Source of the DNA: a virus
Virus record (IMG/VR): IMGVR_UViG_3300046501_000150
Coordinates: 1 to 49,364 of that record
Length of the DNA stretch: 49,364 nucleotides
Strand: one strand, 5' to 3'
In this document: piece after piece, positions 3,179-44,849 of the stretch
Layout: every line of letters starts with the position of its first letter
Position numbering within the stretch: position 1 is the stretch's first letter
Notes under the pieces: generated by a model
What the model was told of the DNA's origin: nothing
Database searches by the model: none
What the model saw: the letters and a program-made list of their open reading frames with translations, nothing else
Position numbers and translations under genes: made by a program

Positions 3179-3194
3179 CTGTATAGACATACAG
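3179..3194. promoter_or_regulatory. LexA (SOS) box upstream of the terminal two-gene unit
   Basis: CTGTATAGACATACAG is 16 bp, fits the CTG-N10-CAG LexA consensus of gammaproteobacteria and has perfect 6-bp arms (CTGTAT/ATACAG). On the minus strand a TTGACC -35-like hexamer lies about 26 bases upstream of it, so LexA bound here would cover the -10 or start region. A second box with identical arms lies at 37920-37935. Confidence 0.88.
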
Positions 3195-5172: not shown

Positions 5173-5924
5173 ACGGCGATGCCGCGGCGCGCCGCGTAAG
5201 CGCGCAGATCTGCGATAGTCGTCAGAATTTCTGCTTCGGTAAGCTCTACCGAGTGCGCCTGGAACACTGCGATGTTGGACTGGCCAGCCTGACCGGCAAA
5301 GGTTGGGATTGCACCAACCAGAATTTTCCCGCTGGTTTGTACCCGTGGGCCCGTGAGAGTGAATGCACCCTCGGTGTAAGCTATGCCAGTCGTGGCATTG
5401 CGGCCGGAGATTTTCCCGTTGGCACGCACCTGAACGACATGCAGGCCCCATGTGGCAAAGGCGCTCGGCGCAGTTGCTACTTCAGATGAAGTGTCTACCG
5501 AGTCAACTACAATCCCCATTGCTGCGCGCACTGTTGAGCCAATCGAGTAGAGCCCGATCCCGTTGCCAAGCGTGGCTGGATCGGAGATCTTGGGCGACCG
5601 ATAGGTGCCGAAGTACCCAGGGCGGGTGGACGCCGACGAGTTGTCGTCAGGGCTCTTGGTGATGATGAAGAAGGTCCCCGCGACTGGTTCGCTCATGCTG
5701 GTGACCAGGTAATTTGTCCCGCTTCTGAAGAGGCCGTCAGAAGCCGACATCGTCGGAGCCCCCACCACAACGCCAGGCCCTTTGCCCGGCGCGTAATTGC
5801 GCGAAGCCTTGGCAATCGACTCATTCAGGAAGTGAACCAGCTCAAGTCCGCGGCGGACCGGTGCGGCGTATTCAGTCGCGAAGGCTTCTGCGTCGACGTC
5901 TTTTGCAATCAAACGAACACCCAT
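5169..5924 (-). CDS. Putative tail fibre or receptor-binding accessory protein
   Basis: 251 residues, start MGVRLIAKDVDAEAF, with GGAG upstream of ATG at 5924. After a helical first 50 residues it is rich in Gly, Ser and Thr with beta-strand character (about 75-225), compatible with a lectin-like beta-sandwich. It lies directly downstream of the esterase tailspike. The C-terminal ELTEAEILTTIADLRAYAARRG is a helix typical of LamG/concanavalin-like phage fibre domains. Function is inferred from position and composition. Confidence 0.65.
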   Translation of the reverse strand: MGVRLIAKDVDAEAFATEYAAPVRRGLELVHFLNESIAKASRNYAPGKGPGVVVGAPTMSASDGLFRSGTNYLVTSMSEPVAGTFFIITKSPDDNSSASTRPGYFGTYRSPKISDPATLGNGIGLYSIGSTVRAAMGIVVDSVDTSSEVATAPSAFATWGLHVVQVRANGKISGRNATTGIAYTEGAFTLTGPRVQTSGKILVGAIPTFAGQAGQSNIAVFQAHSVELTEAEILTTIADLRAYAARRGIAV

Positions 5925-5940
5925 GTGTAACTCCTAATTT

Positions 5941-7848
5941 TCAGAAGCCGGAAATGCGGCTGTATTCGAACATCACGCATGCGTTGTGCAGCGCGAACGT
6001 GTTACCCAGAGGGGATACGACGGTGTCTACGGTGCCGTGGCTGTCGCGAAGGTTGCCGCGCGCGCCCGACGATGGACCTGAGCGCGCCGGATCGCCGATG
6101 CGGCCACGGGCGTAGGTCAGAACAGCAGATGACGCCGCGGCTCGGTTGAGCGTAAGTCGCAGCGTGTCCGGCGCCGTAACAGAAACCCCGGTGATCAGGT
6201 CAGTCACTACGGCGTCAGCCTCTCGGATGTCGAAGCCCTGATTGACCTGTTGAGCGCAAAGCGCGGTGTCGAGCACCAGAGGGCCGTAGGGAACATGGAA
6301 CTTCACGTCCACATATCCTGGCTGCCAATCCACCGATACAGGCTCAAGAGGTCTCCACTTGGATGCACCCTTGATCATTGAGGCGTAAAGGGCGCGGCTG
6401 TGGTATTCCCCCATAAGCCACGACGCCTCATTGGTAAGGTGCGTGTAATCCTGCGTGACGGTCGGAAACATGTAGGCTGGAGCCGACATGATCATGTGGT
6501 CGAACATCTTTGTTACCCGCCACTGCGCGAGCGCAATAGGCATAGCATCAAGCCCGGCTTTTCGATGCGTAGCTACTTGGTAAGTAAGGGTGTAAGGCCT
6601 GAACGGCTGCATCGATATACGGCTAACGTCTTTCGCGAGCATGTCAAACAGTTTTGTTTGCAATACCGCGTACTCAAAAGCGTTATTGGCAGCACCAACG
6701 TCCGTGTAGTTATTCTCACCTTGAGCCCAAATAAATGCCCATACGCTGTACGTCTTCCCCTGCGAGTCGCAAAGAGCTTTCGCATCCCTAACTGTTTGCA
6801 GCAAGGCGTTGTAATCGCGATTGCTCATATCCGGGAAAAGCTCTTCAATCCGCCTTGCCCCCCGCCCGCACGAGGAGACAAGGAATCGCCAATCTTCAGC
6901 CAGGCCGCCCTCTGCGACAATGCGCCGAACGAGGCCATTACATGCCCCAGACATGGGCGATTCGCCCTCGATCTCGCCGGTACTGCCATTCTCCAGCGTT
7001 TGCGTTTCGACGGCGGGGAGGAAAGAGCCTGGGCCGTAGCCGATATCGGTAGGGCGAACTTTAATACCCGATGCCAGCATGAGGTTTTGGTAGGGCTGCG
7101 TGGTGCTGATGATCGGGCTAGACCTCACTCCACGAATAAGAGATTGGCCAAACCCTATGAGGTGCATCACCGCCGTGCGGACTTGCCGACCAAGCTCTAG
7201 AAGCGGCATATCCGGCTCCTGTTGGTACCCAGGGATCACAAAACCTTTCGGGTCAGTGATCCTGATGCCAGGAGGATCGGCCGGCCGCACGACGAGACCG
7301 TTGATTACTGACTCGCGCGGGCCAAATCGACTGAAAAGAAAGCCGTTCAGGTCGGAAAGCTCAAGACCTTCTGGCGCGTCAATAAGCTTCGCAAGGGCAG
7401 TTTCGAGCCCATTTGAATGAAACATCCCGTTGCGCTCAAGCCAGGCGACAATGAAACCTTGGCGATCCACGAATTCGTGCGACCGAATCGAGGCGCTATC
7501 TGACGGCGTGGCCTGAACGAGTGCCGCAAGCGCGCTGGTGGCGTCGACGCTTGAGATGCGACCTACCTGCACCGCCACACCCGCATCGTTACGATAACGG
7601 GTTTCGAAAACATCGCCAGTACCTGGAACCGTAAAAAAACGGTTACTGATCCCAGTACCATTGGTTGCGGTCAGCCCTTCAGCGATAGTCTGAAACGTAC
7701 CAACGCTAGCCAAGAACTCTGCGTAAATCTTCTTCAGAGTTGGCTTGGTGACACCATTGATGACGACATAGTCCTCATCCGACAAAAACAACGCATTGGC
7801 GTTTTCCACCAGCTCTTCAAATAGCTGAAGGTCGCTTGCTCCGCTCAT
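5941..7848 (-). CDS. Tailspike/tail fibre with SGNH-type carbohydrate esterase domain
   Basis: 635 residues from ATG at 7848, which has GGAG 5 bases upstream; an in-frame ATG at 7875 would start inside a terminator. The N-terminal ~190 residues are a helical attachment part. The central domain shows the SGNH/sialate O-acetylesterase pattern: GFGQSLIRG (block I, Ser about 236), WAQGENNYTDV (block III, compare WxQGESN) and DYTHLTNEA (Asp/His about 467/470). A C-terminal beta-rich domain follows (about 505-635). It probably removes acyl groups from host surface polysaccharide during adsorption. The substrate cannot be read from the sequence. Confidence 0.82.
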   Translation of the reverse strand: MSGASDLQLFEELVENANALFLSDEDYVVINGVTKPTLKKIYAEFLASVGTFQTIAEGLTATNGTGISNRFFTVPGTGDVFETRYRNDAGVAVQVGRISSVDATSALAALVQATPSDSASIRSHEFVDRQGFIVAWLERNGMFHSNGLETALAKLIDAPEGLELSDLNGFLFSRFGPRESVINGLVVRPADPPGIRITDPKGFVIPGYQQEPDMPLLELGRQVRTAVMHLIGFGQSLIRGVRSSPIISTTQPYQNLMLASGIKVRPTDIGYGPGSFLPAVETQTLENGSTGEIEGESPMSGACNGLVRRIVAEGGLAEDWRFLVSSCGRGARRIEELFPDMSNRDYNALLQTVRDAKALCDSQGKTYSVWAFIWAQGENNYTDVGAANNAFEYAVLQTKLFDMLAKDVSRISMQPFRPYTLTYQVATHRKAGLDAMPIALAQWRVTKMFDHMIMSAPAYMFPTVTQDYTHLTNEASWLMGEYHSRALYASMIKGASKWRPLEPVSVDWQPGYVDVKFHVPYGPLVLDTALCAQQVNQGFDIREADAVVTDLITGVSVTAPDTLRLTLNRAAASSAVLTYARGRIGDPARSGPSSGARGNLRDSHGTVDTVVSPLGNTFALHNACVMFEYSRISGF

Positions 7849-34642: not shown

Positions 34643-34917
34643 GCGACCCCCTGGGCGGTCTGTGCGGCGCGCTTGAGCGCAGCGGTAAGCATTCGGTAGT
34701 AGCGCTTAAATCGCTCTGGCTGGTCGATCTCTAGACTCCAGCCGGGGTCGTGGCACCAGCCGCAGGATTCGTCGCAGCTGTGGTTGTGGCCTTCGTCCGG
34801 GAAGTGCTTCTTGATGATTGCGCGGGCTTCCTTGTTGATCGCTGCGCCCTTGGTGAGGAAGCGCCGGCGAGCAGTTGGAGCCAGGTAGACAATGGCTTGT
34901 TGGGTGACGATGCTCAT
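34639..34917 (-). CDS. Small phage protein with CxxxCxxC motif
   Basis: 92 residues, start MSIVTQQAIVYLAPTARRRF. Zinc-like HNHSCDESCGWCHDPGW (residues about 44-60), followed by an RFKRYYRMLTAALKRAA helix. Lies between antirepressor and initiator genes, coupled by ATGA on both sides. Function unknown. Confidence 0.7.
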   Translation of the reverse strand: MSIVTQQAIVYLAPTARRRFLTKGAAINKEARAIIKKHFPDEGHNHSCDESCGWCHDPGWSLEIDQPERFKRYYRMLTAALKRAAQTAQGVA

Positions 34918-35690
34918 GCCGCACCCCGCAAAGCCTTGTCATGGGTGAACAAGCCGTCCCACGTCTTCTTCATGGGTAGCTCGCCAGCCAGGTACAGGTT
35001 GTACAGGCGGACGGCACCCTTCTTGAGCAGGACGGGCGTGAAGGAGACGAAGGGCTCTTTGCCGTGCGGGGTGACTTCGTGCTGATGCTCAGTCATGTAC
35101 TTGTCGCGGGCATAGGACGCCACACGCAGGCGCAGGCCAGATTTGCTCTCGTTGTAGAGCCAGCTCCGCCCTTCCAGAAATTTGCCGACCTGCATTACGT
35201 TGACCCCATTGAGGCCCTTGCAGAATTGGGTGTGGGTCATCCCCTCCTTGAACAGGTTCTCCAAGGAATGGATTTTGGTGGCTTGAGCCTGTACCTCGAC
35301 AGACAGCTGCAGTCGGGCCTGCTCAGCAACCTGCTTCTTCTCGACCTCGTCCGCCCAGGCGCGAGCTGCTGCCGCTGGATTTGAAAAATCAGGGAGGGTG
35401 GCAATGACACGAGGGGCATCCATAGCCTTCAGCTTTTGGAGTACCGCACGCCGAACAGACTTGGATTCGCGCATACCTACGAGCATGCATTGATCCAAGG
35501 TAAGGCCGTAGGTAGCCACTTGGTTACCATGGATAGGGGTGTAATATTTTTGCACCCCCTCAAGATCGTCACCAAGTTCATCCTCAACCCGAGAAAGGAA
35601 CTGGTCATTGCGCACCCTTGCCTCGCCTGCGGCTTGTCGCTCGTTGTTGATCAGGTCGCGCAGTTCAATGGTTGAAATCATGCGCGCCAC
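34914..35690 (-). CDS. Phage antirepressor with KilA-C (ANT)-like C-terminus
   Basis: 258 residues from GTG at 35690 (MARMISTIELRDLINNERQA), GGAGGT 9 bases upstream; the open frame continues to 35753 without better evidence, and ATG at 35681 is the alternative. N-terminal part ISTIELRDLINNERQAAGEA, YGLTLDQCMLVGMRESKSVR resembles Rha/Ant-type N-domains; the C-terminal half has the ANT/KilA-C pattern (THTQFCKGLNGVNVMQVGKF, WLYNESKSGLRL, VTPHGKEPFVSFTP). Such proteins inactivate CI-type repressors. Inverted repeat site B covers its start codon. Confidence 0.85.
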   Translation of the reverse strand: MARMISTIELRDLINNERQAAGEARVRNDQFLSRVEDELGDDLEGVQKYYTPIHGNQVATYGLTLDQCMLVGMRESKSVRRAVLQKLKAMDAPRVIATLPDFSNPAAAARAWADEVEKKQVAEQARLQLSVEVQAQATKIHSLENLFKEGMTHTQFCKGLNGVNVMQVGKFLEGRSWLYNESKSGLRLRVASYARDKYMTEHQHEVTPHGKEPFVSFTPVLLKKGAVRLYNLYLAGELPMKKTWDGLFTHDKALRGAA

Positions 35691-35718
35691 GTTTTCGTTA
35701 CCTCCAAAACGTGGCGCG
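35683..35718. repeat. Dispersed inverted repeat, site B, over the antirepressor start
   Basis: CGCGCCACGTTTT (35683-35695) and AAAACGTGGCGCG (35706-35718): perfect 13-bp arms with a 10-base loop. The loop holds the Shine-Dalgarno (GGAGGTAACG in the mRNA) and the start codon lies in an arm, so the element may work both as a DNA operator and as an RNA hairpin. Confidence 0.88.
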
Positions 35719-35750
35719 AGTTGCGGGGTATTGCCATGTGTCTGGATTTG

Positions 35751-35779
35751 CATATAATCGATCCCACATATGCGTTTAA
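35751..35779 (-). promoter_or_regulatory. Candidate antirepressor promoter with GCATAT/ATATGC operator
   Basis: Minus strand TTAAAC (35779-35774), 17 bases, TATATG (35756-35751). Spacer and -10 hold a 6-bp inverted repeat GCATAT...ATATGC. The start would be near 35744, about 55 bases before the GTG at 35690. -35 match is weak (3 of 6). Confidence 0.4.
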
Positions 35780-36324: not shown

Positions 36325-36573
36325 TTAAGCGGCAGATAGGGTTTGTGAGGGCGCAGAATTGATCTGAGCCCACGGAAAAGATGGGCAAAGCTCGGCGCGA
36401 TCAACTGCGCCGCCGGTCAATGCCTCGATTTCAATGGCGCGCCTGGCAGGAACGGCGCGCTCTCCGGAACACCATTGGTTGACGGTGGGCGCCGTAACCC
36501 GCAGGCGGCGCGCCATTTCCGCTTGGCTGCCGAGCAAGCGGGATGCTTCTTTGGCTGCTTCTGCTGATTTCAT
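36325..36573 (-). CDS. Cro-like repressor (YdaS-type HTH)
   Basis: 82 residues from ATG at 36573 (MKSAEAAKEASRLLGSQAEM) with AGGAGAG upstream. HTH SQAEMARRLRVTAPTVNQWC (about 16-35) followed by SGERAVPARRAIEIEALTGG is the YdaS/Cro pattern. First gene of the minus early operon, divergent from the cI gene, and preceded by a TTGTTT-N17-TATATT promoter carrying two operators. Confidence 0.88.
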   Translation of the reverse strand: MKSAEAAKEASRLLGSQAEMARRLRVTAPTVNQWCSGERAVPARRAIEIEALTGGAVDRAELCPSFPWAQINSAPSQTLSAA

Positions 36574-36600: not shown

Positions 36601-36677
36601 AATATAAGGCATTACCTTACCGCAAACAAGCCATTGCCTAACCAACATTCGAATAGGCCTAATTAGGCAATGCTTAC
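36601..36677. promoter_or_regulatory. Intergenic operators and cro promoter (oL/oR-like cluster 1)
   Basis: Three related 15-bp operators: 36605-36619 TAAGGCATTACCTTA, 36627-36641 CAAGCCATTGCCTAA and 36663-36677 TTAGGCAATGCTTAC. The minus-strand promoter TTGTTT (36629-36624), 17 bases, TATATT (36606-36601) has site 1 over spacer and -10 and site 2 over its -35. Site 3 overlaps the cI start codon at 36670. Confidence 0.82.
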
Positions 36678-37530
36678 CGGACCAGAATTAGGCGCAGCCA
36701 TTGACGCTGCGCGGATCGCCAAGGGCGTATCAAAGAAGAAACTCGCAGACGACTTCTCAGTGAAGCCTCCGTCGATTCAGGGCTGGGTGAATAACGGCCG
36801 GATCGACAAGTCGAAACTGATGGACGTGATCGCCTATTTTTCGGACGTGGTAGGACCTGAGCACTGGGGATTGCGGCCAGGGTTTAGCTACGCGAACGTC
36901 ACGGACGAGAATCCCGAGAGGGGTTTAGCGCTGGTTGGCGGGGAGGCGAATTCGTCGTCAGCGGCAGACAAGCTGCGCGAGATGCTCGCCGGGAAGTCTC
37001 TCGGGAATGAAAAGCTGCAGAGGCTCTTGGCGGTTGCGGAAGGCGACGAAGTCGAAGAGGCTGGCGGCGTGCTTGTCCATGATGCGTACAAGCCAGGTAA
37101 GGTCGGAGACGAAGTGTGGATTGCCCACTACGACATCCGCGGGGCAATGGGCGGCGGCGAGGTCAATCACGACTACCCTGAAATGCTCCAGGATGTGCGC
37201 GTCAGCCCTTCCCAGCTCCGAGCCATGGGCGTCGAATTCAAAGAGCATTACAGCCTGAAGATGGTAACTGGCTGGGGTCAGTCTATGGCCCCGACCATAA
37301 AACACGGCGATCCGCTGCTGGTAGATATCAGCATCAAGGAATTCATCGGCGATGGGGTCTACTTCTTCTCGTACCAGGGCTTTCAGTACATCAAGCGCCT
37401 ACAGATGAAGGGGAAGGATAAATTCAAGATGATCTCAGACAACCGGAAACATAAGGCTGAGGACATTTTCGTAGATGAGACCTACATCCAGGCGCGCGTG
37501 CTTTTCGTGTGGAACGGAAATTTGGTCTAA
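36670..37530 (+). CDS. CI-type repressor, HTH plus S24 (LexA-like) domain
   Basis: 286 residues. HTH at about 14-42 (IAKGVSKKKLADDFSVKPPS then IQGWVNNGRIDKSKL). The S24 domain has Ser205 in GWGQSMAPTIKHGDPLLVD and Lys242 in FQYIKRL, 37 apart as in LexA. No Ala-Gly stands 35-45 residues before Ser205 (the segment reads DIRGAMGGGEV); the only nearby Ala-Gly, 131-132, is 73 before. So autocleavage may be altered or absent. The start codon sits inside operator 3. Divergent from cro. Confidence 0.93.
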   Translation: MLTGPELGAAIDAARIAKGVSKKKLADDFSVKPPSIQGWVNNGRIDKSKLMDVIAYFSDVVGPEHWGLRPGFSYANVTDENPERGLALVGGEANSSSAADKLREMLAGKSLGNEKLQRLLAVAEGDEVEEAGGVLVHDAYKPGKVGDEVWIAHYDIRGAMGGGEVNHDYPEMLQDVRVSPSQLRAMGVEFKEHYSLKMVTGWGQSMAPTIKHGDPLLVDISIKEFIGDGVYFFSYQGFQYIKRLQMKGKDKFKMISDNRKHKAEDIFVDETYIQARVLFVWNGNLV

Positions 37531-37547
37531 TTCGCAACGCAACCCAG

Positions 37548-37575
37548 AAGCCCGCCACATGAGCGGGCTTTTTTG
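37548..37575 (+). terminator. Rho-independent terminator of the repressor gene
   Basis: AAGCCCGC-CACATGA-GCGGGCTT followed by further Ts on the plus strand, 18 bases after the repressor stop and just before the convergent DUF1654 stop at 37582. Confidence 0.85.
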
Positions 37576-37581
37576 TGTCTT

Positions 37582-37899
37582 TTAGAAAGGTGATGGCTCT
37601 TCCACCTCAAGGAGATCAACCGATTCCACAGGTTTTTCGTCGTCCTCTGACGGCTCCCACCTCAATGTGATCGACGAGTCTTCGGGGTTCAGCGTCATGT
37701 CGATCCCGTCCGCCTCGGATATGGCGGCCAGTATCTCGCTCCACTCCCTCTCGCCGTCGTTATCCAGACGATGAATCCTTACCTCCCGCCTCTCTTGGGC
37801 AATTGGGTGATTGATCATTCCCGAAACCCTGAGTGAAAGCCGCTGCATGCTTGACATTGTTTCGCGCTGCGACGGTTTGGTTTTGCCCTGAACTGCCAT
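37582..37899 (-). CDS. DUF1654 family protein, LexA-box controlled
   Basis: 105 residues from ATG at 37899 (MAVQGKTKPSQRETMSSMQR), GGGAGG 5 bases upstream. SSMQRLSLRVSGMINHPIAQ, VRIHRLDNDGEREWSEILAA and ADGIDMTLNPEDSSITLRW are the DUF1654 pattern, a Pseudomonas-lineage family often found with LexA boxes. A perfect box (37920-37935) lies just upstream. Function unknown, possibly in induction; it is the only gene between the repressor and the operators of the plus early operon. Confidence 0.85.
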   Translation of the reverse strand: MAVQGKTKPSQRETMSSMQRLSLRVSGMINHPIAQERREVRIHRLDNDGEREWSEILAAISEADGIDMTLNPEDSSITLRWEPSEDDEKPVESVDLLEVEEPSPF

Positions 37900-37919
37900 A
37901 AATACCTCCCTAACGACTG

Positions 37920-37935
37920 CTGTATATCCATACAG
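37920..37935. promoter_or_regulatory. LexA (SOS) box upstream of DUF1654 gene
   Basis: CTGTATATCCATACAG, 16 bp, CTG-N10-CAG, perfect 6-bp arms identical to those of the box at 3179-3194. It ends 20 bases before the DUF1654 start codon. Confidence 0.9.
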
Positions 37936-38009: not shown

Positions 38010-38058
38010 TTGAAATTAATTAGGCATTACCTATTTACACGCATTAGGCATTGGCTTA
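38010..38058 (+). promoter_or_regulatory. Plus early promoter with two CI operators (cluster 2)
   Basis: Operators TTAGGCATTACCTAT (38020-38034) and TTAGGCATTGGCTTA (38044-38058) share the half-site TWAGGCA of the cI-cro cluster. A plus-strand TTGAAA (38010-38015), 16 bases, TATTTA (38032-38037) puts the first operator in the spacer. It lies between the LexA-boxed DUF1654 gene and the nut-like leader. Confidence 0.72.
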
Positions 38059-38095
38059 TTGTTCACCCATCGCGACGAAACATGAAGCCGCGCCA

Positions 38096-44384: not shown

Positions 44385-44849
44385 ATGCCAACACTATCTG
44401 ACGTCGGCCGCCTCGGTCGGGACGCTGAAATCCGCTACACGCCGGGCGGTGACGCTGTGTGCAATCTTGCTCTGGCCTGTGAATACGGCCGCAAAGGCAC
44501 TGACGGCAAGAAGCCCACCCAGTGGATCGACGCAACGCTCTGGGGCAAGCAGGCTGAAGCGCTGGCCCCGTATCTGCTCAAGGGGCAGCAACTGCACTTC
44601 ACTATCGACGATGCCCACGTCGAGACTTTCCCAAAGAGTGACGGCACCCAAGGCATCAAGCTGACCGGTCGAGTGATTGTGATCAAGTTCGCAGGCAGCC
44701 CACCGCAGCAGGATCAGCCCGCACCGCAGCAGCAGTCGCGCCCGGCCAATCAGCAGGCCCGGCCTCAGCAGCAATCTCGACCAGCCCCGCAGCAGTCACC
44801 ACAGCCTGCGGCAGACTTCGACAGCTTCGACGACGACATACCGTTTTGA
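44385..44849 (+). CDS. ssb: Single-stranded DNA-binding protein
   Basis: 154 residues. OB fold: VGRLGRDAEIRYTPGGDAVC, WIDATLWGKQAEALAPYLLK, GQQLHFTIDD; then a Pro/Gln-rich linker (QQQSRPANQQARPQQQSRPA) and the acidic tip DDDIPF that recruits partner proteins. It is the phage SSB of the recombination/replication module. AAGGAA precedes ATG at 44385. Confidence 0.95.
   Translation: MPTLSDVGRLGRDAEIRYTPGGDAVCNLALACEYGRKGTDGKKPTQWIDATLWGKQAEALAPYLLKGQQLHFTIDDAHVETFPKSDGTQGIKLTGRVIVIKFAGSPPQQDQPAPQQQSRPANQQARPQQQSRPAPQQSPQPAADFDSFDDDIPF

Follow-up and report, generated by a model that had tools for sequence, protein, structure and literature searches.

A LexA box is, judged from upstream sequence, a near-invariant feature of the DUF1654 family, one member of which lies beside the CI-like repressor gene of the Pseudomonas prophage analysed here. 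As the LexA-controlled gene stands beside the repressor in nearly all relatives, DUF1654 probably helps DNA damage to wake the prophage. We propose that this lambdoid immunity region receives two parallel SOS inputs, CI cleavage and a LexA-switched DUF1654 protein, a reading to which we give about an even chance of being right. The first-pass annotation of this DNA had described a repressor without an obvious cleavage dipeptide, with the SOS signal possibly entering through LexA-controlled genes. That account is partly supported: as a LexA-driven route into induction DUF1654 is a good candidate, but a probable, unusual cleavage site is still present in the repressor.

Results

Layout of the immunity region

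The window (the whole stretch of DNA that was analysed, an IMG/VR virus record of 49,364 bases) is a prophage of Pseudomonas. Its immunity region is lambda-like, with cI running rightward and a cro-led lytic operon running leftward (Table 1). The inferred right operator contains the repeats TAAGGCATTACCTTA (36605-36619) and TTAGGCAATGCTTAC (36663-36677). The DUF1654 gene is convergent with cI and occupies the space between it and the probable left operator. The KilA-C antirepressor, which had been placed downstream of the SOS signal, is of the Ant type. Its gene belongs to the cro-led lytic operon, on that side of the immunity region, so the protein would act only once repression had been lifted.

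Elsewhere in the window, positions 2400-2450, just inside the host tig side, resemble the 3′ part of a tRNA-Leu gene and may be an attachment site; no tRNA was called by ARAGORN.

Table 1. Positions of the features discussed in the text, numbered from the first base of the window.
Feature	Position	Strand	Remarks
Second gene of terminal pair, 79 aa	2621..2860	-	phrog_6137 3.9e-6
LexA-boxed small protein of terminal pair, 98 aa	2864..3160	-	phrog_5560 4.6e-30
Second LexA box, CTGTATAGACATACAG	3179..3194	+	just upstream of the 98-aa ORF
Ant-type anti-repressor, KilA-C-like end	34914..35753	-	phrog_63 5.9e-44; Pfam ANT 0.0013, below cut-off
Cro/YdaS-like regulator	36325..36573	-	head of leftward lytic operon; Pfam YdaS_toxin 1.2e-16, P22_Cro 2e-9
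Operator-like repeats between cI and cro	36605..36677	.	inferred right operator region
CI-like repressor, 286 aa	36670..37530	+	RacR-like N-terminal helix-turn-helix plus Peptidase_S24
Met160-Gly161 codons	37147..37152	+	aligned with scissile Ala-Gly/Cys-Gly of HK022, SE1, D3, JBD24 and lambda
Catalytic Ser205 codon	37282..37284	+	GQSM motif, invariant in repressor family
Catalytic Lys242 codon	37393..37395	+	YIKRLQ motif; Lys in all 144 repressors scored
Terminator-like hairpin 3′ of repressor gene	37546..37572	+	consensus match only
DUF1654 gene, 105 aa	37582..37899	-	Pfam 1.6e-18; phrog_2707 2.1e-29
SSB-like tip codons, EEPSPF	37585..37602	-	consensus EExAPF
LexA box, CTGTATATCCATACAG	37920..37935	+	20 bp upstream of DUF1654 ATG
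Probable left operator and PL	38020..38062	+	operator-like repeats at 38020-38034 and 38044-38058; promoter-like TTTACA-17-TATTGT, a match at chance level
Phage SSB, ends SFDDDIPF	44385..44849	+	Pfam SSB 1.2e-14; reference for tip comparison

The repressor has a probable, unusual cleavage site

The repressor carries a Peptidase_S24 domain (Pfam, 8.4e-14) behind its helix-turn-helix domain, as expected for an S24 repressor; residues 1-70 match NCBIfam RacR at 2.8e-20, which is below that model's cut-off. The earlier observations on its active site were borne out. Ser205 and Lys242 form a Ser-Lys catalytic dyad, and neither Ala-Gly nor Cys-Gly is found 44-45 residues before Ser205, where the stretch reads YDIRGAMGGGEV. 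These are the usual scissile dipeptides of S24/LexA-type repressors, although not the sole ones. What had been missed is Met160-Gly161, at the canonical place in a protein whose dyad is intact. In an alignment of the window repressor with 17 other repressors, YDIRGAMGGG falls opposite LDVQASAGPG (HK022), LDLEVSAGPG (SE1) and YTARGECGDG (D3) at the scissile position. Ala-Gly does occur elsewhere in the protein (residues 107-108 and 131-132), at neither place in the canonical position. Ala131-Gly132 was rejected as the true cleavage site, being off the aligned position and not conserved among relatives.

Methionine or leucine at this position is the rule among the Pseudomonas relatives. The dipeptide is Met-Gly in 111 of 144 repressors with the motif, Leu-Gly in 27 and Ala-Gly in five; one hit is spurious. 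The Met-Gly and Leu-Gly repressors come from Pseudomonas loci (138), and the five with Ala-Gly from enterobacterial phages. All 138 scored Pseudomonas relatives combine Met/Leu-Gly with an intact Ser/Lys pair. As the dyad and the P1′ Gly are kept throughout the relatives, while P1 in Pseudomonas is always Met or Leu, the simplest reading is that the family does cleave, with another residue at P1. We infer that CI cleaves itself, at a dipeptide that is unusual and perhaps cut more slowly, and that Met160-Gly161 is probably that site.

A repressor of this kind may have a precedent. Koudelka et al. reportedly found in 2004 that the lambdoid 933W repressor, which has neither Ala-Gly nor Cys-Gly, is cleaved at Leu-Gly. 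Both are S24 repressors without the usual dipeptides, although the window repressor has Met-Gly where 933W has Leu-Gly, a dipeptide that appears in some close relatives of the window repressor. Comparison of the repressor sequence with those of solved structures gave no match, and nothing was drawn from its structure model (mean pLDDT 47).

DUF1654 genes are preceded by LexA boxes

A search of the window allowing up to three mismatches to the LexA consensus returned the two boxes in Table 1 and no other match, against 0.01 expected from dinucleotide shuffles, none of which reached two. Both boxes had been called perfect; they do fit CTGTAT-N4-ATACAG perfectly, but each has two mismatches to CTGTATATATATACAG. 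The genes that they precede, DUF1654 and the terminal pair, exist as annotated. With LexA boxes in their promoters above chance, both units would belong to the LexA regulon.

The window protein is a clear member of DUF1654 (PF07867), scoring 66.6 bits against a curated cut-off of 27. It has a lysine-rich start, an alpha-beta core (residues 17-81), an acidic linker and the C-terminus EVEEPSPF. AlphaFold predicted the alpha-beta fold of the core with a pLDDT of about 88. Foldseek found no match to this fold in the PDB or BFVD at E <= 0.001, and VIA-align gave middling Z scores (up to 6.5) to Smr, KhpB/R3H, S8 and Alba folds. These matches to nucleic-acid-binding alpha-beta folds are weak, and may reflect a common arrangement. 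PADLOC gave no match for DUF1654.

We read the DNA upstream of DUF1654 relatives from IMG/VR, annotated phages and species genomes for LexA-like boxes. Essentially all genes with upstream DNA had a box, either 14-60 bp upstream of the start or overlapping it, where the background rate is 0.85% per 80 bp. Among genome copies, 78 of 80 had one, and the exceptions were a one-base-variant box and a mis-set start. The box was also present at the prophage loci with upstream DNA in IMG/VR, and before the DUF1654 genes of phages F116, phi297, LESphi3, D14E, LPPA33, TC7, PotUPM1 and P54. Two annotations of these phage genes deserve comment: the annotated start in TC7 (5884-6207 of its locus) is too far upstream, the real one following a LexA box at 5923-5938, and the D14E gene (6004-6261 of its locus) is labelled HslU.

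DUF1654 was found in 129 of the 149 Pseudomonas genomes sampled, whereas no copy turned up in the 14 controls. Many Pseudomonas genomes have a second, chromosomal, non-prophage copy, which adjoins EndA-type or exonuclease-endonuclease-phosphatase-type genes (identified by eye). All 23 chromosomal copies examined had a LexA box, and their C-termini were mostly VPKED, without the tip described below. As this chromosomal paralogue shows, prophage induction is not an inherent role of the family.

The prophage branch carries an SSB-like tip

The window DUF1654 protein ends, like SSB, in Pro-Phe after acidic residues. Besides DUF1654, the phage SSB is the only other credible ORF of the window that ends in this way. 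When 142 distinct DUF1654 proteins, drawn from prophages as well as from genome loci, were compared, 134 had an exact Pro-Phe end. The 43 representatives were selected for a PF end, so -1 and -2 do not vary among them; position -3 is mostly Ala, and Glu occupies -5 and -6 (37/43 each). The 20 residues preceding the tip are freely variable and acidic. The bacterial SSB tip (DDDIPF) likewise has a conserved acidic-x-x-Pro-Phe end behind a variable acidic linker; it differs in having Asp-Asp-Asp-Ile in place of Glu-Glu-x-Ala. Moreover, the DUF1654 protein has no OB-fold SSB domain detectable by Pfam, which matched DUF1654 alone.

The tip is missing in the chromosomal class, and in PP_3901 of P. 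putida, F116, LESphi3, P54 and phi297. Tip-bearing proteins cluster on the tree, requiring 2 changes compared to 9.0 in shuffles. A conserved SSB-like EExAPF tip is a newly recognised feature of the prophage branch of the family. For this class, action on SSB-binding repair proteins, and hence on RecA activity or early phage replication, would be as plausible as binding to CI.

PP_3901 of P. putida KT2440 is a DUF1654 gene

According to PMC4595014, which cites Abella 2007, the P. putida prophage gene PP_3901 is repressed by LexA1/LexA2 and is needed for prophage genes to be induced by DNA damage. The primers printed there, for qPCR and for the promoter, match one viral contig and delimit an ORF of 86 aa. 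PP_3901, as delimited by these primers, is a DUF1654 protein (Pfam, 1.7e-32) with the LexA box CTGTCTATGCATACAG. Its setting in prophage 1 of KT2440 resembles that in the window, with the box at the start of the gene, a cI region and an S24 repressor with Leu-Gly at the site (IVGTAQLGNDG). Ciprofloxacin raised excision of the KT2440 prophage about 100-fold (PMC12894663).

In contrast to the window gene, PP_3901 lies on the same strand as cI rather than convergent with it. On account of this orientation we rejected, as a general mechanism, antisense control of cI through convergent transcription of DUF1654. PP_3901 shares only 23% identity with the DUF1654 protein of the window and lacks the tip, and it falls within the chromosomal class, separate from that of the prophages, so transfer of function from it is weak. 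The PP_3901 link is nevertheless the main, if limited, support for DUF1654 as an SOS input.

DUF1654 accompanies different repressors

LexA-boxed DUF1654 genes also accompany Ala-Gly repressors, in F116, LESphi3, D14E, TC7, LPPA33 and P54, which argues that DUF1654 is no substitute for cleavage. Conversely, phages Marin and UFJF_PfDIW6 have Met-Gly repressors, and DUF1654 was found in neither, so it cannot be obligatory. These two groups of phages led us to reject a strict coupling of DUF1654 to Met/Leu-Gly repressors. In PotUPM1, a LexA-boxed DUF1654 gene lies beside a CI of 164 aa without an S24 domain. This repressor (2379-2873 of its locus) ends in a cysteine-rich, zinc-ribbon-like stretch.

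The terminal pair

Three relatives from IMG/VR (92-97% identical) and phage Medea1 (68%) share the LexA box of the terminal pair. The pair, for which PADLOC found nothing, looks like an SOS-controlled accessory unit. In phage PG1 (1797-2815 of its locus), a 35% homologue of the 98-aa protein follows an SOS-response-associated peptidase gene, and the 250 bp ahead of the operon contain no detectable LexA box.

Discussion

How might damage reach this prophage? With two inputs, loss of LexA on DNA damage would allow DUF1654 to be made at once, independently of CI; DUF1654 would promote escape from CI repression; and CI self-cleavage and DUF1654 would both contribute to full induction. From the sequences compared here, the two routes are likely to run together. 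Entry of the SOS signal through DUF1654, as the first-pass annotation had suggested, gains support from the family-wide LexA box and from the report on PP_3901 in PMC4595014. The other LexA-boxed unit that it had named, the terminal pair, fares differently, as nothing was found that links it to induction. We consider it highly improbable that this pair carries the signal: although its LexA box is conserved in four related phages, the pair lies far from the immunity region, sits beside lysis genes or an integrase in Medea1 and PG1, occurs in few phages and has no homology to known antirepressors, and its PG1 homologue has no such box.

A possible but doubtful alternative is that DUF1654 is ordinary SOS cargo and takes no part in lifting CI repression. 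It would serve repair of DNA or the early replication of the phage, for instance with its tip occupying SSB-binding proteins, and Met-Gly cleavage of CI would alone bring about induction. LexA-boxed copies beside nuclease genes, outside prophages in many Pseudomonas, fit this, as do the SSB-like tip, which points toward repair or replication partners, and the loose association of DUF1654 with Met-Gly repressors. It is harder to reconcile with the fact that DUF1654 stays within the immunity region in prophages of very different kinds, and with the sole phenotype reported for a DUF1654 gene, that of PP_3901, which is lost damage induction of prophage genes. Rather improbable, in our judgement, is an uncleavable CI with induction wholly dependent on LexA, DUF1654 being a direct antirepressor. 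Tum of phage 186 is a LexA-controlled antirepressor. The Gifsy prophages likewise have LexA-controlled antirepressors, paired with repressors that are uncleaved and have no cleavage motif, which provides a precedent (PMC3121763). DUF1654 resembles these proteins as a LexA-controlled phage gene that would turn SOS into induction, and the absence of Ala-Gly/Cys-Gly from the site, together with the CI of PotUPM1, agrees with such a role. However, no sequence match was seen between DUF1654 and the Gifsy antirepressors or Tum, and the Gifsy antirepressor genes lie outside the immunity region whereas DUF1654 lies inside it. Unlike the Gifsy repressors with their missing cleavage motif, all relatives of the window repressor have an invariant Ser, Lys and P1′ Gly, and Leu-Gly is a known cleavage site. 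The presence of DUF1654 beside several unrelated repressor types is also a poor fit to binding of one repressor; a general SOS aid fits better than a repressor-specific antirepressor, though this decides nothing.

For the two-input reading, the tip suggests one way in which DUF1654 could act, which we put forward as speculative and unlikely. Prophage DUF1654 proteins could be SOS-made mimics of the SSB tip, occupying host proteins that read it, and could thereby raise RecA coprotease activity or redirect repair proteins. This would induce prophages held by poorly self-cleaving Met/Leu-Gly S24 repressors, both their own and co-resident ones.

The repressors with Met-Gly or Leu-Gly offer a natural set in which to study how the dipeptide at the cleavage site determines the threshold for induction. 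DUF1654 emerges from this analysis as an SOS family that includes the one P. putida prophage-induction gene to have been studied genetically. A gene that had been anonymous can now be tested as a link through which DNA damage may induce prophages in a major genus.
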